64,000 nucleotides of DNA. It comes from Panaeolus papilionaceus (Eukaryota; Basidiomycota; Agaricomycetes; Agaricales). Every line of letters begins with the position of its first letter. Within the stretch, counting starts at the first letter, position 1. Under the pieces are notes generated by a model, which saw only the letters and a program-made list of their open reading frames with translations, was not told the DNA's origin and made no database searches. Below, one piece after another: positions 19,171-39,632 of this stretch. Made by a program: the position numbers and the translations under genes. Location: NCBI GenBank assembly GCA_015501605.1, contig JADNRZ010000001.1, forward strand, positions 310,001 to 374,000, in the 5' to 3' direction.

Positions 19171-21002
19171 GAGAGATGAGAATTGACCTTGAAGTTGTTG
19201 AAGTGGAGCTAAAGGGGGGAGTTGGGTTGGCGTCGAGAATGTTATGGGGGACTGGTTTAAGTATTCTTCAATGCATCATTGGAGGTTCTTATAAAGTCGC
19301 CCTTAGCTATTCGGAAGCCATATCGAACTACCATTGTTTCGTAATTATATTGATAACTTACCTCGACCGCGGAGCCATGAGATCTCTCTATTAGACTTTG
19401 CTCCTGTTCTGCTTCTTTACGATAAGTACGAGCCAAACGCCCAGGTTTGATAGCATGGGCCTTTAACTGCTCGTCGAGGTACTTTGGGCTTGTTAGTGAC
19501 GAGGACCTACATAGTGAGTGCTGTTAACCCTGACCCTTTTCGCATCCCGAACCCGAAATGAATGGAGTTTCAAATTTCAACTTTCAATGGATTCGGAGTT
19601 TGCCTTCGAAGGATGGGAAGGGACCATCCTGGTATCGTCGCAGCATCGCTTCTACTGTAACTACTAGTGCGATTTCTCACCACAACTACCAGTCAACGCC
19701 ATCAAGAGTTTGTTTTACACTTGCCACCATATCCCACTTGATACAAGCATACGGTGGCAAGGTATGTAAGGCAGAGTCAATACGAGTCGAGTTCCATTCT
19801 CTTGGATGGGGAGCCGAAGTCATCAACCTTGTGAACAAACAATGCCATCACCGTTGCAAACGTGCCACCAAGCAACTGACGTTTTCCCTTTCGTTTTTTC
19901 AACTTGCGTTCAGCTGTTTTCAGCCTCTACAGCAATGACATGGCAATGCGTGTTCAGATTTCTGTCCTCTCGAATTACCAAATTGAAGTTTGTCTGTCAT
20001 ATTCTCATTGAATTGAGGATCTCCCCAAACTATCAAAAAATGGCTGCACTTTTGGTATGAAACAGGGCGCTGCTTCAGCTCAACAAATCCCAACGTTTAC
20101 GGACATAATGCAGTTCGACATAACTGTCAACAATATCCTATGACGTTTGTCAGACGTCACTCTATGTATCTTGTCGCTTTGACGTTGGTGGGGCATTGAG
20201 CGCCCAGGGCTCGTCGGGGGGCGAAAAAGGTGTGGAATTCAACAATTCATGGAGTGCTTTTAGAAATGGGATTGATACGACAGATTTTCAGACTCAGAAA
20301 TTCCCATTTTTGACCTGCACTCTCGACTTTCTCAAGGAAGAACATGAGCGATGGGGGCTTTGGCTTCCTACAGGTACTGTTTGTATTGTTTTCAAATTCC
20401 GAGCATCCCGGATGTTCTAGAGAGTGGTCTATCTATCCAGCAATTTTTTCTGCAATATCTACAAGCGAGAAGGTAGTGTGTCATCAAGTTTCTGAGCACC
20501 GCTCGTCATCGACGTCGCAAAGCGCCCCCAAGAACCTTCAGAAGCAGGCAAACTTAGCAATCCACGCATCCGCTATCTGATGTCTGAGTAATCTCCTCTG
20601 CCTTTGGTGATCTGCGCTACACACTTAGTCATACTCCACTTTCCAGAATGGTGTGCTCCAAGATGCATGCAACGGAGAAGTCACGGCCTGAAACATATGC
20701 TGGCCCCTATATCATTCCCGCAACTTTTAAGTGGAGGGTTTTGTTAGACAGGCACCCTTTTGAAATCTTTCGTGCGGCATGCACCGGCTGCCCAAAAGTC
20801 ATGTGAGTATTGCGTAATTTGGCTATTATGGTAACCGTTTGCGCGTTTTCTTTCCTGCGCGCGAGTTCTGTTTGAGCGGTGTTTTATGCCTGATGAAACG
20901 TTTCACTTTTTTATCTCTTTATTTGTCAATTCGTTAGACAGTTGTAATTTTCTCTCTTCCCCTTAGCGTTATCATATTACGACGTCTCTTTGCAGTAACA
21001 AA
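19171..21002. other. Intergenic; probable left junction of the mobile block
   Basis: About 1.8 kb between the NmrA-like start and the Helitron first exon. Open frames at 19,558-19,938 and 20,196-20,580 show no family features. A weak GC-rich inverted repeat lies near 20,772-20,792 (GGCA and TGCC arms). The 5' end of the Helitron-type element must lie somewhere here, but the expected short terminal signal (TC after a host A) is too short to place by eye. Confidence 0.35.
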
Positions 21003-24000
21003 ATGGAGTTTTTCATTGGTGGTTTTCCTTCTCGCGTTTCCATCGTATCGGAGTCGGCTACGCCCGTTCTTGCTTTGCATTTTGCTAAGCGTTTCTCGCC
21101 TGCTGTTCAAGAAAGCTTGTATATGCCCCTTGAGGTTGAGATGAAGAGTGGTCGAGCGTCGTATTCTGAGATCGTCTGTTTTCAGGTGCGCGATCTGCAT
21201 TCCGCTATAGATGCACTTTTGCTTTGTGATGTTGTCGATCGGTGTCCTTTCTACACTGAATGTAATCTCGCGTCGCAACCTTCTTCTTCTTTAGGTGTGT
21301 GTGTGATTTTATATAGGCACTATATACTGACAAGTTGCTTTCTGCCCTAAGACCCGCTTCCTTTGGACAACGTGATGTCCTCCTTACACCCGAACGGACG
21401 TTTGGGTTGTTGTACTCGTTGCATGTCTGAATATTGTCGATGTCATTCCCCCTTTCAAGTAGAATGTGCTTCTTCTCCTCCTTCTTGCCCTGCAGAGCCC
21501 CCAAGCGACAACGCCTTGCGATCTGGGAAGGAATGTCTGTCTTTATCATTGTTTGGTCATAAAATTACTGGTGTATACGCTACGCCTTTCGTCAATGATG
21601 TGGTGGTCCTCAGACGATTGTGTTCTTACCATGGTATTTCTATGGAAACTGGTAACGTGTTCGAATGTCGTGCTGTGTATTTGCGCCATCTTTTGCTTGG
21701 ATGTTGTGTTGACGGGGCTCTGACAAGGGACAATGTTGGATGTGTTGCGTTTAGTAGGACTTATATAGACTCGTACTCAATGTCCGCCGATGCTTTATGT
21801 TTGCTCTCATCGGCTAAATCGTCTGAGTTAAGTACTGACGATCTTCGTCGTGCGGCTGCAGCCTTGAACTTGAAAATTGAGTCACATCCATCGGCGTTTC
21901 GTGCGCGTTTACAAAGCGTTATTTTCCGAGAACGGGCGGCTATTTTTAATCGATCAAGAACTTCGTTAACGGAGAGTGTTGAAGTCGATTACAGTGTATT
22001 TTTAAAGGACATTTTCCGCGCTAGCGATGATCTTATGATGAAAGTACTGGTTTCTCATGGATATGATTTGTTTCAGTTGAATAACCTGGTCGGTGAAGAC
22101 AGTAAGCGCCGAGAATTTATTAATCACATATCTCGTGCAGATTGTAAGGTTTCGCCGACTTTTCCAGAATGTGTAAGAGATGGCTGTCTGTCTTTTTCAC
22201 GTGCGGTTATGTCTTTCAATCAGTTTAATTCATCTGACTTTGTTAGGTTGAAAACTGTCGATTACCCTTCAGACTGTTATGTCATTAAGTTGTGTGCATT
22301 TGTGAAGAAGCATTTCCGTTTGTTGCCGATGTTGACCTTCATGAAAATCCGAGGGATCGTGAACGAAGATTATACATCTACAAAAGTTCGTGAGGTTCAA
22401 CGAATTCTTAATGCCGAATTACAGCGCTTGGTTGCTGTGATAAGAACCAATTCTCGTGGACCCCGTGGTAGCGTGCAATGCGACAATGCGTCTTCGGCTG
22501 CTAATGTATCTGATGAACATCTGTCGTTATCTACTCCTTCTTGGCCTCCGATTATTTCTGAGGAAGTTAATCAATCGTGCATAAATGATTTTCGAAAGGC
22601 CACGTCAAGTGATACTTTACGTCAGCGCGTTTGCGCATCGTGTTCGAGACGGTTATTCGCAAGGGAAATGGTGGAGTGCAATCTTCCGGATGTTAATTTG
22701 AATAGCTTTGTGCCGCCATCTCATAGAGTGCAATCTCAGTCTGATGACGTTGTCGATTCTTCCTACCCATATTTGCGTGAACGATGCTCATCTTTTTTTC
22801 CAATATCTCATGCTCCAATGGCGATGTTGCATCCTCGAGGTGTTCATCATCAGTCCAACGGGGATATGTCGTTGATTTTGTGTCGAGACTGTTTCCAGAG
22901 CGCGCGCTCAGACCGTGTTCCTGCATTGTCTCTGGCTAATCATAATTTTGTTGGGGACGTTCCGGATGTTCTGCAGAATCTTACAATGGTGGAAGAAGCC
23001 ATGATATCTCGATGTAGAGCTAAAATGACGATTATTCAGATGACTGAATGTGACGTTGGACAAGGGGGGTTCCTTTCTCAAAAGGGATTAAAAGGCAATG
23101 TCATTTTGTTTCCTCAGGATGTGACACCTGTTGCGCAGACTTTACCGCCGTCTTTAAACGAGCTTTCTGCTCCTGTATGTATCATTTTTGTTGGTTCTCA
23201 CAAGCCGTCTGACGATTGGTTATTGCATAAGGCTAAACCATTAACCATTAGACCTTACGTCGTTAGAAGGGCGCTCGAATGGTTAAAGATTAACAACGAG
23301 CTTTATCGTCATGTCACGATCGATCATGACATGTTAGACGCCTTACCTCCGTGTTCTCATTTGACAGTGCCCATTCATCGTTACGGGGGAATTGAGAATA
23401 TGTCTAGTTTGTCCTCACGATACGATACCTACCATGATCAACGTTCTAATGCGGTTTTCCCAGAAGAGGACTTGGTATTTGAGAAAACGTGTGTTCCAGA
23501 AGCGGTTGATGTGACCTCTCCGTCCGCTTTGCGAGCGGCTGCAGCTGAACACTTGAAAAATGGTGGCCATTATCTACAGATCCCGCACCGTGATAGTCCT
23601 TGTAATGAATTTAAAGACCCTACCCTTATGCCTATGGCGTATCCCACCCTTTTTCCTTATGGAATAGGGGGGTTCGAACATCAGTCTCGATCTGTGCCGT
23701 TGTCCTTCGAACGTCAAGTTCAGCTTTTGTTAGATATTGCAGATACGCGATTTCAGACTCACATATCTTTTATATTTGTCGTTTTCAATATTTTTCAGCG
23801 TCGACGGGTCTTATTAAATACGCATCACAAGGTCCAGAACCGCAATTTTCGTGACTTTGCTGCGAAGTTTTCTTCGGTTCCTGCAACGGCGATAAAAAAC
23901 TACTCGCACAAAAAGGATGAAAATCCACAATGCACACCTTCTGATGAAAATGAGCGTTTAATTGAACGTCTCTTGCATGAAATTCATGTCGTTCATGGTA

Positions 24001-27000
24001 ATGTGTTGGGGTCGTCTTCCATGAAATCAAGGATGCGGAATGAGATACGATCGTTAATTATATCTAGAGGCAATCCCTCCTTCTTTATTACCATTAATCC
24101 TGCCGACGTGTATTCTCCCATCTTACGACTAGTCGCTGGTGATGAGTTTGATATCGATAATATGCTACCTGAAGATTTTGTGGATTATGTACCTCAGGCG
24201 CACAGAATTGCCTCTAATCCAGTGATGGCTTCAAAATTTTTCGATATATATATGGAAGCATTCTTTCAGTGCTTGCTCCAATGTACACCTTCTTCGACAT
24301 CTTCTGATTATGGTGTATTGGGTAAGACGAGCGCTTATTATGGGTGTATTGAGGCGCAAGGTCGCGGTTCCTTGCATTGTCATATGTTGGTGTGGTTGGA
24401 GGATAGCTTGAATCCTGATGAGTTAAAGCAAAGGCTTACTACAGACGACGATTTTCAAAGCCGATTCTTAAGTTATTTGTCTTCCGTTATATCGACAGAG
24501 GTTCCTCTTGATCCTTTCAACAGTGTTTCTACTCCGATATCTGAACGTCATCCCTGTAAGAGTAGAGGCGTTCCAATTGGTAACGACGAGTCAAATTCGC
24601 TTCATCGACAACATGATATGCATTATCTAGCAGAATCGTGTCAACGTCATACTCACAGTGCTACTTGTTATAAGTATTGGAAAGGTGTAGGTCATGACAA
24701 AATATGTAGGTTTCATTTAGACGCTGCTAATGTCGTTCCACACACCACTGTTGATCCTGATTCAGGTGAAATTGAGCTTGAGAGTAAGGATGGCTTAGTG
24801 AATAATTATTGTAAACCTATTTTGGAAGCTCTGCGTTGTAATATGGACGTCGAATTTATAGGTTCGGGAACTGCTAGCAAGGCCATTCTTTATTACATAA
24901 CCGATTACATCACAAAGTCTCCGTTGAAAACTCATGTAGGGTACGCTGCATTGGAGACCGCGGTTAATAAGTTGGGATCGTTCGACGTGACTAATCAAGA
25001 CATAAATGCGTACACAAAGGATTTAATAAACAAGTGTGCATTTGGGATGATAAGTCGTCAGGAATTTTCAGCTCAAGAGGTAGGATCATTCTTAAGGGGC
25101 GGAACAGGGTCAAAATGCAACCGCAAGTTTCGCTCTTTTTCGTTAGATGCTTCTAATCTTGTTAATTTATCCATTCATACAAGTGATCAAGTAGACGCAG
25201 AAGACGCCGGGGAAGATGATGCATTGGTAGATCTCGAATCAGACGACGCGGGTGGTGTTACCAAAAAATGTACCGTTCTTGATGACTATATGAACCGACC
25301 GCCTCCTTTACATGCTGTGTCTCTTTGGGATTTCATGTCCCAATTTCAGAAATATCACGTTTCAAAGAGTACGCCTTTCGACTTAATGTCAGGCGCACAA
25401 AAAGAAAAGTTATGTCAACCTGACGTGCGAACCTTTCCATTCCTGTCAGGTCATCCTCGCGCAAAAACTTATCGCCTTAAAAAATTAGATGAAGCTGATT
25501 TCTTGATACCATGTCCTGTCGGTAAAAAACTACCTCGTCGTGATCAGCTCCAGTCTTATGCGGTATATTGTATGTCCATGTTAACATTATTTGAACCATG
25601 GCACGACCCCCTTACGTTAAACTTGTGGGAAGCTTCCGAAGTATGTAGTTTGTTCGAAGCGGCTAGATTGACATGGGCGCCAAATGTGATAAAAATTTTA
25701 GATAATATTCAATTTTTACATGAATGTAAAGACAGTAGCAGAGATGATCACTATTCCCGTCGCAGGCAACAATTGCGAATCTCTCTTAGAAACGCTGAGA
25801 TGATAAATGGTTGTGGCTCGACGTCTTCCGACGATGAACTGACTTTGGACGACATCGAACAGGAGTTGGTACTTGAACATTTCCAGAAAATGGCTAACCT
25901 GACATCCAGATATCAACAATCCCGTAAGAACGACTGTGACGATGTTTTTAACTCTTTGGATTCCGCGCACATTTATGTGACCTCGGGCAACTGTCATTCT
26001 GAAGGACCTGATCACGCAATCCATGCGTCTGATGCTACAGCAGAGAATATATGGAATGACTATTATCATAAGCGTCGAAAGGACGTGCGTATGGGAATCT
26101 CGCAAGACACAGAATCCGAACCAGTACCTGCTGTGGATGCATACGCCGCTGCGTTTGCTGCTAACGTACAAACCCTTCCTACCCATGCTGTTGCGGCCGT
26201 GCAGAATCTTCCGAGTACCACAATCAACCGATCAGCTGACACCTATCATGAACAATGTGCGCTTGTCGCAGACGAAATAGTGACCGCTTGCCAATTCGGT
26301 AGAGAACAAGAACGCGCATTTAGAATTATTGTCGATGCACATACGCGTTCGATAGAGTCTCAGTCCCTTCTACCTCTTCGTATGAATATTTCGGGGTCAG
26401 GCGGAACAGGCAAGTCAACCGTCATTCATGCTGTGAAAGATTATTTCAGGCGCGTAGGACAAAGCGATAAACTGAAAATGTGTTCCTTTACGGGTGTTGC
26501 CAGCAAAAATGTGGATGGAAATACATTGCATTCTGCGCTGAGTCTTCGCTGCGACTTAAATTCTTCTAAGAACAGGACGGAACTTAGAAACAGATGGGAA
26601 AAAGTTCAGTATCTCTTTGTCGATGAGGTTTCCATGATTGGCTGTAGATTATTGGCTCGTGTCGGTGAAGCTCTATGTATAGCTAAGTCTTCTTCTCAGC
26701 CTTTCGGAGGTATTAATGTTATTTTCGCCGGCGATTTCGCTCAGTTGACACCCATCGGTGAGCCTACTTTGTATGCTAAAATTAACAGTAAAAATGTATC
26801 CAATCGTGATGGCCAGAACGATGTGTTGGGAAAGCTCTTGTGGTATTCGGTCACGACAGTTGTAATATTAACCACTGTCTATCGACAAAACTGTAGCACA
26901 CAGACAAGATTTTCCGCTCTTCTACAGCGCTTACGATTTGGAAGATGCACTAAGGAGGATTACGAACTGTTAAAATCAAGAGTTGTGACTAGACTGTCTC

Positions 27001-28250
27001 GAGATGATTTGCCTACCGGATTTGAAACAACATCACTAGTAGCAAAAAATGACATGAAAGATGACTTGAACATCCGAGCTACTCACGCATTTGCCGAAGC
27101 TACAGGAAGGTCTCTTCATTGGTACTACGCCTACGATATGAAAAATAAAAGTCACATTTCCATCAACTCGGTCATTCATCCTTATTTGCGTAACTTGCAC
27201 GGATCGTCATGTGCGTATAGATCTACCATGTTACCGATGGTAATTGGCATGCCTATCATGTTAGTTTCAAACGTGGATGTCGACGGCGGTGCTACTAATG
27301 GAGCAATAGGCACACTCAAGAGTATCAGATATAAATGTGACGAAGACGGAAATCGCTACATGAAGTCATGCGTGATTAATACGGGAATGACTACACCTTT
27401 CACACCACCTAACCTTGATCCTGGAGACATAGCTGTCGTAGCCGATACTCAGTCATTTAAAATTGTCCACAAGCCTACGGGTAAAAGGTTGTCGATATCA
27501 CGTACACAGGTGCCTATCTCTCCCGCCTTTGCATTGACGGTTCACAAAGCCCAGGGATGTACACTAAACAGTGCCTTGGTCGACCTCGCAGGAGTTTCCG
27601 GAACCGCAATGCCTTACGTAATGTTATCTCGCGTTCGTTCTCTAGAAAAACTGTACATCATAAGAGATTTTGACATACAAAAAATCCAGTGTAAACCATC
27701 CGAGGATTTGCGAATCGAGTTCAAACGGCTTGACATGTTCGATAGTGCAACAAAAGCGCAATTTGATGAGGCCCATCAACGACAGACCGTTATTTCGTTA
27801 AATACGAATCGCTTTTCTAACAGCATGCCAACCTCAGATCGAACTGGCGTTTCATTTAGTTTAATTGACCAAGGCAACAACGGTTCAAACAATGCCGCAA
27901 TATTAGATGATCTCGAGCTTGAATTTCATCGAATGATCGAAGACGCTATGGACAATGATAACCGTCGTGACGCTTGCTCCGTGTCGCAGTCGACGTCTTC
28001 TTTTTTGGCAACCTTCGTTCGAAGACCCAAACGTATATTAACCAACGCGAACCCGCACGAACTTCACTGTCAACCAACGAATAATAATATTACCTCTGAA
28101 GTGAGCGAACATGGGATGCCCATCGAGACAACGCACATAAGCCGAAAACGACCCAGGTCCACTTCCATTGACGAGACACCTACTCTTCCAGGTAACGTAA
28201 CCGACCATTCAGCAAAGAGAGTGCGTCTTACCCCTTCTACTTCATCATGA
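21003..28250 (+). CDS. Helitron Rep/helicase transposase
   Basis: Two exons, 21,003-21,294 and 21,352-28,250, joined across a 57-base intron (GTGTGT...CTAAG) in phase, give 2,396 residues. Order of parts: N-terminal region with CCTRCMSEYCRCHS; a Cys-rich module starting CASCSRRL (about 525) with LCRDCF and ALSLANHNFVGDVPDVLQNL, as in the DUF6570-type region of fungal Helitrons; a Helitron N-like domain with SLIISRGNPSFFITINPAD; the HUH site GRGSLHCHMLVW (about 1,105); the two-tyrosine motif LYYITDYITK (about 1,277); then a Pif1-like helicase with Walker A GSGGTGKS (about 1,780), VDEVSMIG, GDFAQLTPIG, TVHKAQGCTL and YVMLSRVRS. HUH nuclease plus SF1 helicase nick and unwind DNA for rolling-circle transposition. 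All catalytic motifs look intact with no stop or frameshift, so it may be active. The long frame's own first in-frame ATG is 21,375; the spliced start at 21,003 is favoured because the first exon is open and phase-compatible. Confidence 0.93.
21295..21351 (+). other. Intron of the Rep/helicase gene
   Basis: Donor GTGTGT directly after TTAG, acceptor CCCTAAG, length 57. It splits a GAC codon (G|AC), and the frames on either side match after removal. A stop-free read-through is not possible in this frame. Confidence 0.7.
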
Positions 28251-28751
28251 ACCGCGCGAGTCTTCGTCAATAGTAATCAGCATCAGGTTTGTTCGCAGTG
28301 TTCCGGGGACGGGGGCACCCCGACCTTGTTTCTCCTCCTTCCGCTATCTATTTATTATTTCCTTATTTACAACATCCGCAGCTATGATATTATCCTTACC
28401 TCACAACCATACACTGTTTCCACATCGACGTGAAAAGGCTGTTCGTTATCGCTCCTATGCAGGTATGTACTGTCATTTCTGTAACGACAATGGCCCCCTA
28501 ATAAAGAAACAGGGAATGATTATTCTTATACGACAATTCTACTCCCATCGCAACTATTCTTCACGTATAACATCTCCGATGTGTTGAAACGCAGTCGTAA
28601 GAAATATTCATCAACACGTTCAATTTTTCAACTAATCGTGCATGATTCGCCTTCAGATCAATCCCTTTCTATGTTTAGGTCCTTATCGCAATCATCGTGT
28701 TCGACGTTTTCATTTGCTACAGATCCTTGCTTCTATATATATATCTTTTCT
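28251..28751. other. Gap between transposase and cargo; GC-rich hairpin
   Basis: A GC-rich inverted repeat CGGGG (28,304-28,308) / CCCCG (28,318-28,322) with a 9-base loop lies 54 bases after the transposase stop. It could be a terminator-like or terminal structure; no CTRR follows it closely. Small open frames (28,384-28,587 and 28,581-28,817) are not convincing. Confidence 0.4.
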
Positions 28752-29969
28752 TTAATCATACTCGTCTTGCCATGTATTTGCCCCCGCAGAATCAATTACG
28801 GTTATCGTTTGCGCTAAAAACCGAAACTTCTGTAAAGCCATAAATAAAAGTAATAGATTCTTGATGAAACTTCCGTACCTGTTTCTCGTCATATCGCCCG
28901 CGTAGATTAAAAGAACCTTCCACTAAAAGAAGAGTCCCTTCCGTCAAAACGTCTTTCAACTGCCAAGGTTTGACCAATTTGTTGTTGGCGTCGTAAATCT
29001 CAGGTTGCCGAAGGACTGAGCTCGTGAGATTGATGGCAGGTAGTCCTGTAAAATCAGGTAGTCTACTGACGGCGTATTCCGCTTTTAACTGATGCACGTT
29101 CGCTATAGCAAATTCCCCTTCAATACGCAGAGAAACATGCAATCAACAGTGCTACCAACCATACTGGTTCCCACCTCTCAAATTTTCAAACGTGTCATTT
29201 CCATACTGCCACGATTTATCAATGTCGGGTCGCATTACGGACGTTACACGTCTACCCGTTCTCTCAGCGTGCTGTAATACGGTATTAGCGGATGCTCAAC
29301 GTCTGCAAACTTCTAAGAGACTCACTCTGTAGATAGGTGTACCCCAAGCTGTGATGACTGTCTCTTCGGGATCAACGAATGTTTGTAAAGGTGTGTCCGT
29401 CAACTCGTTCTACAGATAAAATTAATGATAGAACTTGATCGCAAGGGAAAAGAAAATTATACTCCTCTACATCGCTCAATGACGTTCGTTACGTTACAGA
29501 TTCGAGCAATTTGATTATTGTACGCATTATAAATAGGTATGGTCGGTAGCGTCGGCATGGCTAGGGCGTATGCATTACGACACGTAGTTTTATCCGTCAC
29601 AACCTTAAGAGAATTGAGCATTCGATAAGAAAATTAAAAGAAAATGAAATAAAAATAGGACTACGATACCGCTTCAGCGTTTAAACCCAACGAATCTCCT
29701 TTCGCACTAATTCGCGTGCCCTGGTTCCGCCCTCCTAATTCACCAAATATCGTAATGGCGAACACATCCGAATCCGAATATGAGGAGCTTTTGGACACAT
29801 CGAAATTGTTCCAGTTCAGAAACGCCGGATGGCGCGATGTCGGAAGACGAAAATCGGCTTCGAATGATGATGTATTGCTGCCTAGGAAATGTTGAGAAAT
29901 TAAGGGGTCTTGTAAGCATGCATGCAAGTTGTTATACACTCCTCGACGAAATTCTGGTGAAGAATGCAT
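28752..29969 (-). CDS. Cargo paralogue A1, possible OB-fold protein
   Basis: Six exons (29,969-29,670; 29,603-29,463; 29,409-29,326; 29,271-29,175; 29,117-28,879; 28,829-28,752) join in phase to 312 residues. I do not recognise the N-terminal half. The C-terminal part has QPEIYDANNKLVKPWQLKDV, then LTEGTLLLVEGSFNLRG, an intron, and FRFLAQTITVID. This alternation of short strands around P-W and E-G-x-F suggests a small beta-barrel such as an OB fold (inference only). Exon 2 (141 nt) and exon 3 (84 nt) have the same length and phase as in A4 (36,985-37,993), and nearly the same as in A3. It is head to head with the ribonucleotide reductase gene, 223 bases apart. Role unknown; single-stranded DNA or RNA binding is one possibility. 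Confidence 0.75.
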
Positions 29970-30192
29970 GATTTGATACGGGATAAGGATAAAAGAAAGA
30001 CCATTCTGCTGCCCTCCTTTTAGAGCGGTAACCGTTTAAACTGGCTGCGACATTGTTATGACATCATTAAAGACTATAAATAGCTTTAGTCTATCATTAG
30101 AATTGTGGTTTATTCATAAACTTACCGATCATTTCTCGCCTCTCGGATCTCACCATATCGACTTCAATTCTTTCATACCACAAATTACAATA
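29970..30192. promoter_or_regulatory. Divergent promoter region between A1 and the R2 gene
   Basis: Two genes start outward from this 223-base gap. On the plus strand TATAAATA at 30,075-30,082 lies about 110 bases before the R2 start codon. The region also contains GGTAACCGTTTAAAC near 30,027-30,041. A shared bidirectional promoter is inferred. Confidence 0.5.
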
Positions 30193-31402
30193 ATGGACAT
30201 CCCGTCACTGACTATAACATCGCCCGGATGTACGAGTCCAAACGAATTAGGTATGTTTGGCGATTCTCTTAACGAGATTAAAAGTGTATTAACAGTTGTC
30301 AATTAACAAATTTGAATATAGTCACAGAACCACTGCTAGTGACGAGTCCTGACCGCTTCGTGCTCTATCCTATAAAACATTCAGAAGTCAGTAAATAAAT
30401 TATACGCTTTTGGTACCATACTCTAATAAGTTGTAGATATGGCAATTTTATAAGCAGGCTCAGGCTTCCTTTTGGACAACGGAAGAAGTGGACCTTTCGC
30501 ATGATATTTCCCATTGGAACGCTCTTTCCGATGACGAAAGACATTTTTTAGCGTATGTTTTAGCGTTTTTCGCCGCCTCTGACGGTATCGTAAACGAGAA
30601 TTTGCTTTCGCGGTTTTCGCAAGAGGTCCAAATTCCCGAAGCGCGTTGTTTCTACGGCTTCCAAATCATGATTGAGAACGTTCACGCCGAAATGTACGCA
30701 TTGCTGCTGCAGACTTATATCCGAGAAGAATCACATCGTCTTCAGCTATTCCGCTCCATGAACACCATTCCATGCATTAAGCGAAAGGCCGATTGGGCCT
30801 TGAGATGGACGACAGACAAGAACGCAACGTTTCCGCAACGCTTGGTCGCTTTTGCTGCGGTGGAGGGCATATTCTTCTCTGGCTCTTTCTGCGCTATCTT
30901 CTGGCTTAAAAAACGAGGACTAATGCCCGGGTTAACGTTTTCCAATGATCTCATATCCCGAGATGAGGGTCTACATACCGATTTCGCTTGTCATCTGTAC
31001 TCCTTATTGGAAAGCAAACCTTCAACTGCAACGGTCGTCCAAATCATCGAAGAGGCCGTCGTAATTGAAAAGCAATTTGTGTGTGGTGAGTTTATTCTCT
31101 TATCCTCGCTGTGAATCGCTTACAAATTATGTTGCTTTGAAGATGCTCTGAAGGTGAAATTAATTGGCATGAACGACCAGCTCATGAAGCAGTATATCGA
31201 ATTTATTGCCGACCGGTTATTGGTAGCGTTGGGGTTGGACAAACGCTGGAATGCATCTAATCCATTTGATTTTATGGAACTTATATCGCTTCAGGCAAAG
31301 TCAAACTTCTTCGAGAGACGTGTCCCGGAATATCAAAAGGCGTCAGTAAGAGCCACCAACCTTTCCAATTCGGAGGGTCAGCCGACGTCGCACATATTGT
31401 AA
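30193..31402 (+). CDS. Ribonucleotide reductase small subunit (R2), cargo gene
   Basis: Exons 30,193-30,250, 30,322-30,386, 30,437-31,085 and 31,143-31,402 give 343 residues. Class I R2 landmarks are present: [34 protein letters not shown] (metal-ligand Asp), [17 protein letters not shown] (Glu, His and the radical Tyr), [12 protein letters not shown] (Glu), [14 protein letters not shown] (Glu, His), [20 protein letters not shown] and [20 protein letters not shown]2 makes the tyrosyl radical used by R1 to reduce ribonucleotides to dNTPs. Odd points: the N-terminal extension is very short (about 20 residues before the conserved core), and the C-terminus ends QPTSHIL instead of the acidic, Phe-terminated tail that normally docks to R1. 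The stop overlaps a GTAAGA donor-like string, so a further 3' exon is possible, although the first readable candidate does not restore that tail. Introns argue against capture as a retrocopy. Confidence 0.92.
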
Positions 31403-31560
31403 GACTATGCCGTTTAAAATCTAGTTATATCACTGAACTCATGCATTGCTATTTTCCTTCCGCATCCTCATTTCAACCACCTCTTACTCCACGCCGATGT
31501 CCATGCCTACCCCCATCCTGCTTCGCACAATAAAGCACTACGTCTGACGACTTCTGACTA

Positions 31561-32587
31561 TCACGATTCGGTTTCGATATGGCGTGCAATATACAGCATT
31601 TCAAACTATGGATAACATATTTGTCAAATCATCTTGCCTTTCAATATAGATTCTCGTACCTTATCGTCTACGCAATTATACATAAATGCGAAGTAACCAC
31701 CGAATTTGGTGATCCTACGGTGTTGAAATACGTCTCGCATCTCCCATGGTCGCACTACTACCGTGCCGTTGATGGTAATATCGCGTTGTATAAGAAGCGA
31801 GGCTGTGTGACGGAGACTGTACTTCTCGTAATCAAACATGAGATCAGGATGGAAGTGTATCAAATGCTTCTTATATTCGCAAAGGCCTAAATGCATTCAT
31901 TAGGTATAGACGACATACGTTGCCAAAGTACTAACTAGATATGCCAATGTTGCTATGCATCGAGTGCAACTTTTCAGCATTGGGGCGGTAGACTGATGAA
32001 CTTCGCTGAATGGTGTATAATCGATGTGAGTCGTCTAATGACGAAAAAATTAATAATTAATAACCATACTTCGTAAAGCGGTTCTCCTTTCAAGAACAAA
32101 CGATTTTCGTCCCCGATTATCTTGTTGACTACGCGACCCTACGAAAAGTCAGAGAGTAGCATAACATGTGTGGCCCCACTTACATTCGTCACAGCCTGCG
32201 CACGATCATACACTCTTTTTATGAAATTAATTTGCTTTTCGCTCGTTGATTGAACAGCAAACAAAGGGCGGCAGACTGTCGCGTCTGTAATGGACTAAAA
32301 ATAAAGATTATTTACTGGAAATTCGAACAATGGGCAAAACTTACATTAGCAGGACAATTCAAGAAGAGTGCTCGATCGCCAGCAGCATCTAACAAGCTCC
32401 CTTCGCCATGTGGAAGTACTTCACCGTAAAAACTAAAAGCAACTTCCGTATCGCGACTATGACAGTATGCCAATATCATCTTGGCAGGCCGAGGCGATTG
32501 ACGAGTCTTGGAGAGATATCGGATATCAAATTGCTTCCCAAGTTGCTCTTCTTCAGGTAATTCATAAAAGATGGTCGAGATCGACAT
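31561..32587 (-). CDS. Cargo paralogue A2, possible OB-fold protein
   Basis: Six exons (32,587-32,345; 32,294-32,184; 32,138-32,070; 32,034-31,936; 31,869-31,660; 31,605-31,561) join in phase to 258 residues. The C-terminal signature is DITINGTVVVRPWEMRDVF, GGYFAF, an intron, then FEMLYIARHIETES. The last two exons (210 and 45 nt) have exactly the lengths of the last two exons of A4. The N-terminal half has FSFYGEVLPHGEGS and SITDATVCRPLFAV, which line up with IFGELGGRNQGT and VVTDKTTCRNAYAL of A1. It is tail to tail with R2 (158-base gap) and head to head with the chromodomain gene. It is the most divergent of the four copies. Confidence 0.7.
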
Positions 32588-32866
32588 GATTGCTAGCAGT
32601 ACTATTGAGAAAAGCAGAATGAACGACAAAAAATCTCGACATAACACGGCGAGCAAATTAATAACCCACCTTCAAAACGCGTTAAGAACTGAAATTAAAC
32701 ATGCAACACGACGTCACCATGGTTAACAGTCTTCTCGATTCCGAGACTGTCTAATCAGTACAAGTAAAACAATTCGTACTCACAAGAAAATGAGACCGTA
32801 CCATTTTTTTTATCTATTGAACGCCAGCTGATAGGTCCATTGTCCTCCTTCTAACGCAAATACCAT
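32588..32866. promoter_or_regulatory. Divergent promoter region between A2 and the chromodomain gene
   Basis: A second head-to-head gap in the block, 279 bases long. I see no clear TATA box. The inference of a shared promoter rests on gene orientation only. Confidence 0.35.
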
Positions 32867-33262
32867 ATGCCAATCAAATCAGAATATTCGGCTCGCAGTG
32901 CATCATCCGATGATGAACCCCAATACGTCTTTACCAGAAAACCCCCCCTCGATTTCTACACGCGAGAATGGACAATAAAAAAGATCGTCGATGAAGCTAA
33001 GCATGGTAATCGAAAATGGTACAAAGTCAGATGGTCGAACTTCAAGGCTTGCGACGACACCTGGGAACCTGCGGCATCTTTACAAAATTGCGCTGCTCTG
33101 GACGAGTGGAAGGAGTTGAGAGCAATTGAACGAGACATCCTATTAACCGCGGTGAGTGATCTTAAGGACGCCTACTGCATACAACATGCCTGATTCGCAT
33201 TATGGTGGGCAGTTTACCAAATACAGATAAATAATGCGACGTGGCATTACAGTCTTCCTTGA
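32867..33262 (+). CDS. Small chromodomain protein, cargo gene
   Basis: Exon 32,867-33,151 followed by 33,227-33,262 gives 106 residues. Residues about 34-82 read WTIKKIVDEAKHGNRKWYKV, RWSNFKACDDTWEPAASLQ, then DEW. This matches a chromodomain: the strand Y/W-x-V/I-x-x-I, the K-W-Y-K-V-R-W strand, and D-D-T-W-E-P. Chromodomains usually read methylated histone lysines. The aromatic cage would use W34 and the W of KWYKVRW, with the third position near D-T-W. The N-terminal 33 residues are Ser-rich. Chromodomains are often found in retrotransposon integrases, but there is no integrase core here, so this is a stand-alone reader. A role in targeting or protecting the element in chromatin is inferred from context only. 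Confidence 0.8.
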
Positions 33263-33596
33263 CTCCGGCCCCGCTTCCCCAACTTGCATTCCTTTCTCTC
33301 TCGTAGTAATACAACACTTGTACAATATGAACTCGCAATAACGTGTTCAATACGATCTTTATTGTCTCGTTTTTGAAAACAACCGCCTTCCACTCCTATA
33401 CTTATCTGATTCGTGGGTGTTTCAACATGACGTCCAGGAACCTCTTGTTCCATTTCGCAAATGCTATTTTTCATGCACTTGAGCCTAATTTTTCTTCTAA
33501 TCGAAATCGCGTACCAACACCACCTTGTTCAATTCAACCATCACTATTCACTGCACATCCGAAATGCCTGGGGTTCATTCTTCACTACAAGGCAAT
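33263..33596 (+). other. Gap before the F-box/nucleotidyltransferase gene
   Basis: Holds an open frame from an ATG at 33,427 that stops at 33,603, overlapping the start of the next gene in another frame. It has no family features and I treat it as chance or 5' leader. Confidence 0.35.
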
Positions 33597-35032
33597 ATGG
33601 TGATTGCCCTCAGAAATCACAAACGCATTATCTTGTAAGCCCATCTTATAAACCATTGACGCATCTGATATACTGTTCATCAGACCTTTTGACATTGTCG
33701 ACCTTATTTGCGATAATCTTCAAGGAAAAGACCTGATAAACTACGCTGCCACTTGCCAAAGCATGCGTACCGCTGTCAGATTACACATCCGCCATAAGTG
33801 TTCCTTTAGCAAATATGTGCACCCGTTTTTTCCTGTCAATTCGCGCGACTCTATTCGTCAAGCTATGATAGACTACGACATGATTATCTCGGGGTCTGTC
33901 GCTTTGGCTTTTTTTACACGACAACCTCCCCCCAGTACGAACATTGACCTCCTATTACCATGTTCCAATCTCGGTCAAGCACTAAAATGGTTCCGACATC
34001 ATTTCTCACAAAAAGGACATTTAATGGAATCTGTGCCACATACCAAACGTCCTAACGAGGACGAAAACGGGGTTGTTTATGCAATGAGATTGGATATTCA
34101 ACCTAATTTTCACGATTTCTCTATAGCAAAGGTTATCACTTTCGTTTTCAACGGCCTAAACGTCAACCTCGTGGCTTGCGTGGTCTCTCCTGCAGAAACA
34201 GTAGCCCGATTCCAATGCAGTGCGTATATCCCTTTGCCTTTCAAATTTCCAGAAAATACCTATTAATTGTAACGAATAGCGATTATGATGGTCACTATAA
34301 CCGCTTACGCCGCCTACTGCTGGTACCCTCTCCCTACACTTAATCTCAAATTAGGCATGATTAATGAACGGCGCAACATGGATTCTATTGATATACTGCA
34401 AAAATACGTTCTACGCGGCTATCGTATGATCAGGGGACTTCGGCGACCGTCGGAGAGGAAACGTCCTTCTTCGCTCTTTAATGAATATCGCAGATTCGTA
34501 GGGGACATCAAAACGTGGACAATTCCTCTGAATGTCGACAACGAATCGTATAAGAAAGACCCATTCCAACTTAATTCATGGGAATTATGGTTCAATAAGG
34601 ACCTTGGGTGGAAAGGTGAAATGTCGTATTCTTTGATATCTTCACCGTTCCTTAAATCAACGATCATCGTCGCGGACGACATCGCCGTGGATCACATAAA
34701 AACAACTCTACTTGCATTACCAGTGGTGGAAGAATACATCGACGACAACCCTGAAAGTTTCTTTTGCGACGACTCCTCCGCGTGCTCAAGCGAGAAATCA
34801 AGCACCTCCGAGCAGACTAACAACGACTCGACAATTTCCTCAACTTTCTCTGACATTGATGAATCGTTGGCATCCATGTACGCGCCTTTAAAAATAATGT
34901 ACGTCTTCGTCCTGAACTAAACGCAGGCTACTTATACGAATCTCTAGACCCGTCAACACCTTCGTGGATAACGAGTTGGTGGAAGCTATAATGTCGCAAT
35001 TTACATCGCATTTCCCAAAAACAAATGTATGA
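33597..35032 (+). CDS. F-box / nucleotidyltransferase-like protein, cargo gene
   Basis: Exons 33,597-33,634, 33,684-34,219, 34,280-34,898 and 34,927-35,032 join in phase to 432 residues. Residues 13-45 (LPFDIVDLICDNL, then LINYAATCQSMRTAV) have the helix pattern of an F-box. From about residue 81, IISGSVALAFF with NIDLLLP about 15 residues later resembles the G-S-x(n)-D-x-D/L motif at the start of nucleotidyltransferase-fold proteins. Only one acidic residue of the usual pair is visible (N-I-D), so catalysis is doubtful. A later FQCTIMMVTITAYAAYCWYP segment is typical of a basidiomycete multi-copy family that I recognise only by pattern. The C-terminal part is acidic and Ser-rich. As cargo, an F-box protein could redirect host ubiquitin ligase (inference). 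Confidence 0.65.
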
Positions 35033-35297
35033 TATTAAATATTGTACGATATAAATTATGATAAGTGCACTCCACGTAAAATTTCTTTGAACACTTCTCG
35101 CCTACATCTAAACCAGTCTCAACTAAACCGCGGCTAACAACTCCGATTTGCGTCTTCCCCCCTCTTATTATTTAGGACCAGACGGTATCAAAACAATAGG
35201 AGGTTATAAATATTTGTCGGTATAAAAATTGAAACCCTCAGACTGTTTGGACTTAACAACGCTCTCCCTCATAAACACTTTCTACAACGTATAACAA
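35033..35297 (+). promoter_or_regulatory. Promoter region of paralogue A3
   Basis: TATAAAT at 35,205-35,211 is 87 bases before the start codon, with a second TATAAAA at 35,221-35,227. The transcript leader is rich in C and A (CTCTCCCTCATAAACACTTT), usual for fungal starts. Confidence 0.5.
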
Positions 35298-36744
35298 ATG
35301 GCTCCCTCAACCGTCCACTCTGTTCCCGATGTCGCTTTGCCCTGCGATCAGTACGAAATCCGCAAGGCACCAGGTGGCGTTTACGAGAAGCTAGGCGACA
35401 ACATTTGCAATCCTTTAAACGAACGTGCCTACCTTGGAACCGGATCTGTCACAATAAATGAAGAGTACTGCGCCGTGCATCGTGCATCAACCCGGGACGA
35501 TGGATGGAAGTCCATATCTTTCCACTTCAACGACGACGAAAAGACGCCTTTCTCTACCATTCTATTCGGTCAATGCGAAGGCAAAAACGCAGGTTCTCGC
35601 TTCGGCCCAATTGGTAGTTATTACCCGAAGGATAACGAGGTACGTACCGCAATCGACATTAGCTTTCAATACTGACGAACACAGCCTATGAACGACGGAT
35701 CATCCGCTAGGAACATAATCTCAATCGCATGTCCATCCTCGGCAACCAACACCATCGAAGTCGCTTGGGAGAACCAAACCCAAGAAATCGCGCGTTTACA
35801 AGAAGTCGTTCAACAAAAACTCGACGTACGTATCTAGCATTATCATTGATTCTTAAATTAACAGAATTATTTCAGTCTCCGGATATGAAAGGCATCTTAA
35901 CAACAACGTCCGCATGCGAAGTCAGCATAAGAGTGGCTACAAGGCCAATCTACGTCGTATGTCTATTTCAGTCACATTTAAATGCATTTTCCTCTTGAGC
36001 TAATGACTGTTTTACCGATGCTCATTAGCGAAACCGCAACAACGATATGGCGACACCTTCTACACAAAAACCTCGCGCGACCGGAAAGGTAAAATTAACT
36101 AAAGAAAATCAACACACGGTAGAAATAAAGGACTTGACCTCTATACCTACGGCATCTAACACCCAAGGTATGATCGTTCTGCTTTAACAAACATCAGCTA
36201 ACCACCCCTCAGAACCGAAAATTGGCCCTGGAAAATTGTACAACGTCAAACATTTCCCGACATACAAAGGAGATTTCTTTCAACACACGAATTCGAAAAT
36301 TCTTCAACACGACGTCTACGATCTCAATGGCAACCTGGTCCCCCCTTGGCGCGTGCATGAGGTTTTAAAGCCAGGCGTATTGGCTTTATTCGAAGGCGTA
36401 TTCACAGTTTGGTGCCCACCCGGTCGACAACCTGTAAGTAATTTTTATATCGTAACCTTGCATACGCTGACCATAACATATAGTCACTCCAGTTCATAGC
36501 CGACTCAATCAAAGTTATCGGCGACAGCAATAACGATTTCGAGCTCCCGATGACGCCCGATGACTATAAGAAGGACACGACGCGTCAGCAAGTATTGGAT
36601 ACGCCCAAGAGAAGCCGAGCATTTGATACCTTCGAGAACAACGACTCCACCAACCACGACAATGTCGACTCGCCCTCACCCACCAAAAAAGCAAAAACTT
36701 CAAACACTAGAAGTTCGAAAGGAAAAGAAAAAGAAATCAATTAG
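35298..36744 (+). CDS. Cargo paralogue A3, possible OB-fold protein
   Basis: Exons 35,298-35,639, 35,685-35,825, 35,876-35,956, 36,029-36,167, 36,213-36,433 and 36,484-36,744 join in phase to 394 residues, the longest copy. Exon 2 is 141 nt as in A1 and A4, and exon 3 ends in RPIYV where A1 ends in TPIYR. The shared core reads HDVYDLNGNLVPPWRVHEV, LKPGVLALFEGVFTVW, an intron, then FIADSIKVIG. The extra C-terminal tail is Ser/Thr/Lys-rich and ends in a basic patch (KKAKTSNTRSSKGKEKEIN), a plausible nuclear-localisation or nucleic-acid-binding tail. N-terminal residues 1-114 are Gly/charged with no recognised fold. Function unknown. Confidence 0.75.
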
Positions 36745-36984
36745 ATTGGTATCTACTTTTCTATAGCGGACGTCAACTATCTCATCCTCCACCCAAAAAA
36801 AAAAAAATCATTTACTTTATGTCTCGTTGTAAAATTAAAATTTGCGTTGCATTCGACAAAAAATGAAAGTTAAACGCCGATAATCTTAAACAAGCGCTGC
36901 TCATGTCTAACACAAATGACGTCAAACAGTCCGCCCTTATAAATTGCTGTAACCTGGATAAACGGCTGAAACAATCAACTTATA
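36745..36984 (+). promoter_or_regulatory. Promoter region of paralogue A4 with CRE-like site
   Basis: The palindrome TGACGTCA (36,917-36,924), the standard CRE/ATF bZIP site, stands 14 bases before TATAAAT (36,938-36,944), which is 41 bases before the start codon at 36,985. An A-run of 12 is at about 36,796-36,807. Confidence 0.5.
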
Positions 36985-37993
36985 ATGAATCCTCCCGCCC
37001 CGACAGATGAAGCCATCATGCGCCTAGCAATTTTCCTCAAAGACCGCAAAACGTCCCCGCAATCATACGCTCGACTATTGCCGTTGTTCTTAAACCCTAC
37101 AGGCGCGCCTCTAACCTTAGCGCCTGGAAGTTTAGGTGCAACAACCTCTCCTTTTATGAACCTCTCCGTAACGAGCTGTAAGGGGCCGGGCGTTGACGTA
37201 CGCCTTCATGACATAACAACCAACTGCGAGTTCGAGTTTATGCTATTCGGATCACTCGTACCACTCAGCAGTCTGCCTGCTCTCGCTACCCAAGTATCAG
37301 AGGTTGATAAAATGGTGAGATTGCACGATGGTCTGACTTGATGTTTAACCAATTATCCATAGGCTGTCCTCGACGAAAACGTTCTAAGACACCCTTTCGA
37401 ACTACGCGAACCTACAAACCCTAACCGTTTAATGAAGGCAGCTTTCAATGAACAAACCAGTCGCGTACGAACCTTTGTACGGACTATTGGGAATTTATTG
37501 GCAGTAAGACCTTCTCTCATCGCTCTTTTCAATGTAACTTAAACTACGCATAGGACATCTCCGACAATGCCAACTCATCAAGCTTTAAGGGGTCACGGAA
37601 CATCGACGTAAAGAAATACGGTCCACCTTTATTAAAAGTACGCACGTTTCACGCCTGGGATCAAGCAAATGTCTAATCATTAACAGTGGAATGTTGCTTC
37701 TGAACCTGAGAAACGTCGTTTTTGCGATGCCCCAATCATAAACGACAACGATGACGAATGGTACCCATGCGACGTATTACGCGATTTAAACAACGATCGT
37801 CAAAAATCTTGGAAAATGTACGAGGTAACCACTATAAGCGACCTGCTATTTTTTAAAGGAATTATGAGGTTCGATTATGACCGCTCAATCGGAACGGTAA
37901 ACAAATAACTTTAATATGATCGTATCAACTTGCTAATTCATTACACAGGTCTGCCGTTTCCTCGCAAATAATGTGGACATAATAGCACAGTAG
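36985..37993 (+). CDS. Cargo paralogue A4, possible OB-fold protein
   Basis: Exons 36,985-37,314, 37,363-37,503, 37,554-37,637, 37,687-37,896 and 37,949-37,993 join in phase to 269 residues. Exon lengths 141 and 84 match A1, and 210 and 45 match A2, so this copy links the family together. The core is a worn version of the signature: CDAPIINDNDDEWYPCDV, SWKMYEV, DLLFFKGIMRFD, an intron, then FLANNVDIIAQ. The N-terminus has LAIFLKDRKTSPQSYARLLP and FEFMLFGSLVPLSS. Alternative splicing at an internal GTAACC after MYE would drop the strand that aligns with the other copies, so the longer exon is preferred. Confidence 0.72.
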
Positions 37994-38040
37994 ATTAAAA
38001 ATTTGTACATACTACACGTCGGTGATACGTTAAACAAAGT

Positions 38041-38067
38041 TGCGGGCTTCGCCATGCGCAGCGTGGC
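38041..38067 (+). repeat. GC-rich hairpin, candidate element 3' end
   Basis: GCCATGC (38,051-38,057) pairs with GCGTGGC (38,061-38,067) around GCA, with one G-T wobble. An overlapping alternative stem is TGCGGGC (38,041-38,047) with GCC (38,051-38,053) and CGCA (38,057-38,060). It stands out in AT-rich sequence, 48 bases after the A4 stop. Helitrons usually end 10-12 bases past such a hairpin in CTRR; no CTRR is seen, so the identification is tentative. Confidence 0.4.
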
Positions 38068-38181
38068 CTTACCTTCAATTATAGTATATGAGTAGCCGTT
38101 CAGAACTTCGGCGTGCAATCCTTTCCCCCCTCAGCCTTAGTCGCAATCGTCTTACATACCCCACCTACATTGAATCGCAAC

Positions 38182-39632
38182 ATGCCGCTCCCAACAAGAA
38201 AGATAGGAAATGACAATGTAACCGCTATTGGCTTTGGCCTTATGGGTCTTTCAGCTTTCTACGGCACAAAATTTGACAGCGACGAAGAACGCTTCAAGGT
38301 ATTGTTTCCTCTCGAACTTGGAGCATGACAAAGATACTCATAATGCATGGGTAGGTTCTTGATGCAGCTCTCGAAGAAGGGTGCACCAACTGGGACTCTG
38401 CAGATATATACGGCGATAGTGAAGATCTCGTTGGAAAATGGTATGATGAGATGCAGTCGCTCACTTGTACAATATACTCACAAGAAAGCATGTTCACAGG
38501 TTTAAACGTACTGGGAAACGAGATCAAATCTTCCTTGCAACCAAGTTCGGTATCACGCCCACTGGAACAGACGGACGACCTGAATATGTCAGGGCTTCGA
38601 TTGAGAAGAGTCTGAAACGTCTCGGTGTCGAAACGATTGACCTCTATTATCTTCATGTACGATTGATCTTCTCTCCATTCAGTTTAGGTCACTAAACTTT
38701 CGAATAGCGTGCTGATCAGAAAACGCCAATCGAGGTATGTGATAAGAAATATTGGCCCACCTGTATATACGCTTATCTTCATTCCTTGGTTTACAGAAAA
38801 CCGTTGGTGCTATGGCAGAGCTTGTCAAGTACGTGCATCTCGATCAACGCATCTCCTAGTACTCATCAAAATACTCGACTTCTAGGGAGGGTAAAGTTCG
38901 CTATCTCGGGCTTTCCGAAGTCTCGGCCGAGACGCTTCGAAGGGCACATGCTGTTCATCCCATCTCTGCCGTTCAAATCGAATATTCTCCTTTCTTCCTC
39001 GACATCGAGGATGAGAAGATTGGCTTGCTGAAAGCCTGTCGGGAGCTTGGGATCACGGTCGTTGCATACTCACCTCTTGGTCGGGGGATGCTGACTGGCA
39101 CATACGTACGAGATTCTCATCAGTGAGCTATTTGACGGTTTCTCATCTTTTCATAGAAATCCAATGACGACATACCCGACGACGATTGGAGGAAGACAAT
39201 TCCGAAGTCAGTAGTTCATTGTCCATGCCTTGACCACATCCACTAACGTCCTGCTCAAATCCTAGGTTCAGCAACGAGAACTTCCCTAATATCCTCAAAA
39301 TCGTCCACGGTCTCGAAGAGCTGGGCAAGAAGCACAACGCAAGGCCAGGTCAAGTAACCCTTGCATGGCTGCTTGGCCAAGGCAACGATATCATCCCCAT
39401 CCCAGGCACCAAGAGGATAAAGGTGTGCACCGTCCTTCTACAGTGGCTCAAAAAATGGAACTCATTTCTGGCGTAGTATCTGAAAGAGAATCTGGACGCT
39501 TTGAAGATCAAACTTATTGCAGAAGAGGTGCAACAAGTTCGCTCGATTGCAGAGAACGCCGATGCTCATTCTGGGGACCGATATCCACCTGGAAGTATGG
39601 AGCTATTGTTCGCCAACACCCCACCGTTGTAA
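38182..39632 (+). CDS. Aldo/keto reductase
   Basis: At least eight short exons from ATG 38,182 to TAA 39,630-39,632. The frame reads [20 protein letters not shown], then [20 protein letters not shown] (catalytic Asp and Tyr), FLATKFG (Lys), IDLYYLHRAD (His), [70 protein letters not shown] and [21 protein letters not shown] (NADPH-binding). All four catalytic residues of the family are present. It resembles the YakC/AKR13 branch and reduces carbonyls with NADPH. The cargo-bearing block ends about 110 bases upstream of its start, so its original promoter may have been displaced. Confidence 0.9.

Follow-up and report, generated by a model that had tools for sequence, protein, structure and literature searches.

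A Helitron and its genes at a Panaeolus locus

The window analysed here is a stretch of 64,000 nucleotides of the mushroom Panaeolus papilionaceus (Agaricales; assembly of 50.9 Mb in 71 contigs), C1:310001-374000, and it contains a Helitron that carries a series of further genes behind its Rep/helicase gene. These genes probably form a kit that serves the replication of the element. Both ends could be placed, so that the Helitron spans 20715-38081 or 17,367 bp (or both ends one base further right), which replaces the limits of 21003-38070 proposed in an original prediction made from the DNA sequence. The same prediction had described the block as richer in AT than the host DNA on either side, which agrees with a GC content of 0.432 in the element compared with 0.469 and 0.466 in the flanks. 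The features of the element are as follows, with other copies named by their contigs.

20715..20738, plus strand: 5' end, TTCCCGCAACTTTTAAGTGGAGGG, present in every copy with both ends
21003..28250, plus strand: Rep/Pif1-helicase gene, exons 21003-21294 and 21352-28250 (one open frame), identified by Pfam, gene model and motifs
28795..29969, minus strand: paralogue A, a model, with two conserved parts like those of C; its position and orientation are the same in C5 and C8
30193..31557, plus strand: ribonucleotide reductase small subunit R2, 349 amino acids, five exons, tail FTTSDDF; last intron read by eye
31627..32593, minus strand: paralogue B, with approximate exon limits; it occupies the same position in C5 and C8
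32868..33193, plus strand: chromodomain open reading frame (ORF), PF00385 at 4.5e-10; window copy only
33564..35032, plus strand: F protein, 436 amino acids, weak N-terminal F-box; in C5, C8 and partly C14
35298..36744, plus strand: paralogue C, 394 amino acids, modelled as an OB-fold single-stranded-DNA-binding protein
36985..37985, plus strand: gene D (tentative model)
38036..38081, plus strand: 3' end, AAAGTTGCGGG, hairpin GCCATGC-gca-GCGTGGC, terminal CTTACCTTCAATTA

The Rep/Pif1 gene comprises 2,397 codons counting the stop, and its product contains the Pfam domains DUF6570, Helitron_like_N and PIF1, all above cut-off. HUH, two-tyrosine and P-loop motifs, searched for with patterns that we take to describe them, are present in the Reps of the window, C5 and C8, and the gene is intact as had been claimed. 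The genome as a whole contains 18 Rep-domain matches that pass the cut-off, at 17 places, though all counts of Rep, R2, paralogue and F loci given here are lower bounds. The nearest Reps by DNA are those of C5, C8 and C20, which lie alongside an R2 gene, and that of C18 (a short match, with no R2 found). Of all Helitron Rep domains in this genome, the one with the highest score (211.9 bits) is located at C8:34967-35518 in a frame of 1,476 amino acids and perhaps represents another type.

Ends, insertion and class of the element

The window has a single 5'-end-like site (20715..20738) and a single 3'-end motif (at 38039). At the 5' end, CCCGCAACTTT forms the left arm of an asymmetric terminal inverted repeat, the right arm of which, AAAGTTGCGGG, lies 35 bp inside the 3' end and is followed by the hairpin. 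The 5' terminus is TTCCCGC (or TCCCGC), and the 3' terminus is CAATTA(T) or GATTG(T). In a search with the window block, the sequence around 38036-38082 recurred at the right edge of further loci, while the left end was located from short copies that hold both ends. Genome-wide, the 3' pattern has five matches and its reversed control none, and the hairpin, folded with RNA energy parameters, takes the same shape in five of seven copies and a different one in C11 and C13. A genome-wide pattern for the 5' end had no match, a result that we set aside since the spacing in the window is one base longer, and that in C8 one base shorter, than the pattern allows.

When its two flanks are joined, the C8 copy gives a sequence that recurs at three other places (217-220 bases, 95-97%) and, more distantly, at a fourth (78%), so that empty sites, which the original prediction had proposed to look for, are available for this copy. 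The junction at each of the first three places is CGTCGCAAATAAATGTCATTTGA, which means that the C8 block (21.5 kb including a later insertion) entered AAAT/AAAT without duplication; this site can be cut at A^T or at T^A, which leaves one base ambiguous. We set the last base of the window element by comparison with these empty sites, and its pre-insertion join would be CCCTATATCAT^AGTATATGAG. For a short copy on C50, there are at least eight unbroken, more diverged relatives of the joined flanks (84-89%). The 3' flank of the C5 copy (C5:992197-992306) is a dispersed repeat whose other matches start at or beside the insertion junction, and the C50 flank contains a related piece in the opposite orientation, which hints that the element may favour a particular target.

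We class the element as a Helitron on its predicted Rep (HUH, two tyrosines) joined to a Pif1 helicase, and the C8 copy, with its three empty sites, adds precise insertion without target-site duplication. The canonical Helitron1 ends (5'-TC and 3'-CTRR) are absent, the asymmetric terminal inverted repeat is a Helitron2 trait, and no Helentron AP-type (apurinic/apyrimidinic) endonuclease was found among the seven Pfam families matched at E 0.05.

Copies of the element share five cargo genes

We scanned for the ends in 12 sequences, namely the window plus 11 regions selected on the strength of a match, and found both in order in seven (window, C5, C8, C50, C56, C13 and C11), the 3' end alone in two (C14 and C45), and neither in the remaining three. 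A 5'-end-like match in C45 was dropped because it lies on the strand opposite to the 3' end of C45. Two of the further copies with both ends, C5 (18.6 kb) and C8 (21.5 kb), are whole and carry Rep and the gene kit together, which supports the original prediction. Their genes follow Rep in the order of the window, A(-), R2(+), B(-), F(+) and C(+), and the three Reps are 50-57% identical in pairwise comparison. The common cargo therefore comprises five genes (A, R2, B, F and C) and not the seven originally listed as a maintained kit, since the chromodomain gene and D are not shared. Four short copies (0.3-1.1 kb) retain hardly more than the ends; one of them, the 0.33-kb copy at C50:18813-19149, holds both ends and, read by eye, the first Rep codons just before the 3' end, as in an internal deletion derivative.

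Rep and cargo are found together in C5 and C8, but relatives of C, R2 or F also occur without a listed Rep near by on C14, C22, C23, C45 and, weakly, C17. On C14, the 26 kb covered retain the 3' end, C and a portion of F and show no match to Rep, C22 has a relative of C and relatives of F with no Rep listed on that contig, and the C17 match is a weak one to A. R2 and paralogue pieces are found in C20 and C23, with a Rep 11-17 kb off in C20 and about 39 kb off in C23, which is decayed and has stops in its R2; on C38, a paralogue lies 4 kb from a Rep. Conversely, no cargo-free Rep with ends near 28.3 kb was seen among the copies that could be read. On C56, C41 and C20, other Reps are followed 6-11 kb downstream by weak matches to F (E 1e-5 to 1.5e-4), and these long Reps (C56:1030454, C41:49222 and C20:416377) may carry other gene sets.

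Similarity between the copies is concentrated in coding sequence. With blastn, the aligned share between window and C5 is 42% for coding bases and 3% for interior non-coding ones, and between window and C8 it is 36% and 1.5%, respectively, in a comparison that uses approximate exon limits for B and D; against the partial C14, 398 of 13082 coding and 50 of 4118 non-coding bases align. Synonymous differences in R2 are saturated, with a proportion of nonsynonymous differences (pN) of 0.20. The gene models of D and of the C8 R2 are not trusted.

The ribonucleotide reductase subunit

The R2 identity of the second cargo gene is confirmed by Pfam (Ribonuc_red_sm, 3.5e-89), and its closest solved relative is mouse R2 (3.8e-142). 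Residues D64, E121, H124, Y128, E184, E218 and H221, which we take to be the iron ligands and the radical tyrosine, are all present. No R1 was found among the ORFs scanned. The R1-docking tail reads FTTSDDF in the window (encoded by a small last exon), FTTTEHF in C5 and FSVNEDF in C8, so that the first and last phenylalanines are kept in all three and position 5 varies; according to the accessible part of a study on poxvirus R2, tail positions 1, 5 and 7 matter most (PMC2900304). Within the C8 R2 gene lies a 3.9-kb insertion with near-identical inverted ends (C8:457952-461872). The host has an R2 pair of its own, arranged head to head at C1:2850865-2854190, 77% identical and both ending in EDF.

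In a phylogenetic tree, three element R2s form one group (support 86/80) among host and animal R2s, and viral R2s are separate from all of these (98/96). This tree includes 18 viral rows after thinning of 60 long ones from 70 loci, has a long C20 branch, and leaves out the R2 fragments from C8 and C23. For R2, a viral origin is unsupported, as the gene groups with cellular and not with viral R2s, and the position of the element group suggests a single early uptake of a cellular R2 gene.

Paralogues and other cargo

The original prediction had grouped A, B, C and D as four paralogues. A and C are related, with a sequence match at E 1.6e-4 in each direction, the kinship of B comes from a weaker match between C of the window and B of C5 (tblastx 2e-5), and D of the window drops out, since it matches none of the D genes in C5, C8 and C14 (best E 0.26) and no kinship to the paralogues was found. 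Its place in C5 and C14 is taken by a different, inverted paralogue related to A. The model of paralogue C is identical over its full length to the annotated protein BJ165DRAFT_1520501. In protein searches, the C family appeared in Panaeolus alone (4 and 5 proteins including the window's own), and F matched itself and one distant Exidia protein, though such searches need shared short words and do not demonstrate absence of either family elsewhere. Viral contigs yielded no C-family relative (37 pattern matches, 0 confirmed). The best matches of a structure model of C are single-stranded-DNA-binding proteins (SSBs), chiefly of the giant-virus/T7 type; an earlier model from five sequences was discarded for its mean pLDDT of 30.3. 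A, B and C may thus be SSB-like proteins, with the modelled C nearest to the giant-virus/T7 type, and these matches would strengthen the replication theme that had been proposed for the cargo.

The F model is identical over its full length to BJ165DRAFT_1520500. Its reading as an F-box protein has a weak domain match in its favour (18.0 bits), below the Pfam cut-off of 20.5, and the ubiquitin-related and nucleotidyltransferase-like functions originally suggested for it are putative. The domain of the chromodomain ORF is real, as predicted, and the gene has no match in C5 or C8. To the right of the element, a gene that by eye reads like an aldo-keto reductase (38183-39000; a similar stretch at C1:1623258 is 76% identical) starts about 100 bp away, so that the element occupies its upstream region.

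Relation to known systems

Comparisons with published systems draw on the available parts of the cited papers. Helitrons are known to carry single accessory functions such as RPA, OTU and VTD deubiquitinases (PMC9741609), TET/JBP enzymes or cap genes. The HELPO1 Helitrons of Pleurotus ostreatus (1.5 to 13.7 kb) resemble our element in that they, too, belong to a basidiomycete and have whole genes (one to four cap genes) downstream of RepHel, of which capB is reported with RepHel in several species; they differ in their smaller size, CTRR-type 3' ends and a RepHel ORF without RPA, and the words "F-box" and "reductase" are absent from the main text (PMC4289320). Helitron2/FoHeli of Fusarium shares the asymmetric inverted repeat, whose 3' arm likewise lies inward of the terminus, an undecided TC or TTC start and the lack of CTRR, whereas FoHeli1 and FoHeli2 are about 5-6 kb long with other termini and, in the text available, no RPA-like genes found (PMC5148889). 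Some plant Helitrons likewise carry an extra single-strand-binding gene beside Rep/helicase; there it is an RPA homologue, while the divergent paralogues found here come nearest, as modelled, to giant-virus/T7-type SSBs (PMC4683698). Fungal TET/JBP Helitrons, one of them a Helitron2 in Agaricus bisporus, also bear a whole accessory enzyme, but this is a single gene proposed to counter silencing, and the accessible text mentions neither ribonucleotide nor RPA (PMC12730594). Beyond transposons, R2-only poxviruses have an R2 without R1, a conserved docking tail and complexes with host R1, although they are viruses, whereas here the carrier is a transposon and its R2 groups with those of fungi and animals (PMC2900304). 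Whole accessory genes in Helitrons are thus already known, and what is new here is a conserved multi-gene kit with R2, of which we found no description in the literature covered (most subscription papers lie outside it).

A probable replication kit and competing explanations

Shared ends, two more whole copies, one precise insertion, coding conservation, and an R2 with catalytic and docking residues are the observations to be explained. We consider it probable that the element is a complete and probably autonomous Helitron whose lineage has made acquired genes into a replication kit that it retains. Rep would nick at the 5' end TTCCCGC, the helicase would peel off a 17-kb strand, and copying would halt at the 3' hairpin. 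The SSB-like A, B and C would coat the long single strand, while the element R2 would pair with host R1 and raise deoxynucleoside triphosphate (dNTP) levels, a step for which the R2-host R1 complexes of R2-only poxviruses offer a tested precedent, as far as the available text goes (PMC2900304). In the least certain step, the F-box-like protein might act on host proteins via a ubiquitin ligase; overall, the kit would work for the element and not for the host. A bolder version, which we regard as doubtful, sees the element as a semi-independent replicon between transposon and DNA virus, whose virus-like module for replication combines several versions of a giant-virus-type SSB with a cellular R2 using host R1 and an F-box-like protein, and whose SSBs may stem from giant viruses.

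Several points weigh against a replication kit. The model of C, for which single-exon pieces were used, is weak (mean pLDDT 55.6; at least 70 in 121 of 394 residues) and has no match in the PDB at E 0.001, and neither a profile search of solved structures nor Pfam scans returned an SSB for the C family. Position 5 of the R2 tail, a key position according to the poxvirus study as available (PMC2900304), is threonine in the window and C5, and the C8 R2 is broken by its insertion. R2 matches lie within 20 kb of just 4 of the 17 Rep places, so Helitrons in general do without R2, and the strongest distant relatives of F (C22 and C45) have no Rep close by. No empty site of the window copy was found in this one genome, and expression and activity of the kit genes are putative.

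The cargo might instead be passengers, i.e., whole genes captured once from host or virus in an ancestor and kept for host benefit or by inertia. This would fit an R2 that groups with cellular R2s, the absence of the chromodomain gene and window D from C5 and C8, which implies that gene gain or exchange continues, and the expressed genes of unknown role on Pleurotus HELPO1 Helitrons (PMC4289320, as far as accessible). We nonetheless think it unlikely, given five genes in one order in three copies with such diverged Reps, coding sequence kept where non-coding similarity was lost, the replication theme, and a host that keeps its own R2 pair at C1:2.85 Mb. A composite island, in which the SSB-like, R2 and F genes belong to another mobile element (virus-derived or a DNA transposon) with the Helitron beside or inside it, would account for the closeness of the C model to giant-virus proteins and for C and F relatives where no Rep is listed (C22), yet Helitron-type ends flank the whole set at three places, empty sites lack the entire C8 block, and no inverted repeats flank the cargo alone, all of which makes it improbable. 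Least credible of all is an ordinary host gene cluster next to a Helitron by chance: R2 is a common host gene, but the set is repeated at three separate places with shared ends, and the empty sites are precise.

Five whole genes have moved together with Rep for so long that synonymous sites are saturated. If the kit serves replication as we favour, a eukaryotic transposon would control part of its own supply of dNTPs and single-stranded-DNA-binding proteins, as large DNA viruses do, and the copying of long strands by Helitrons would become testable in a mushroom genus.

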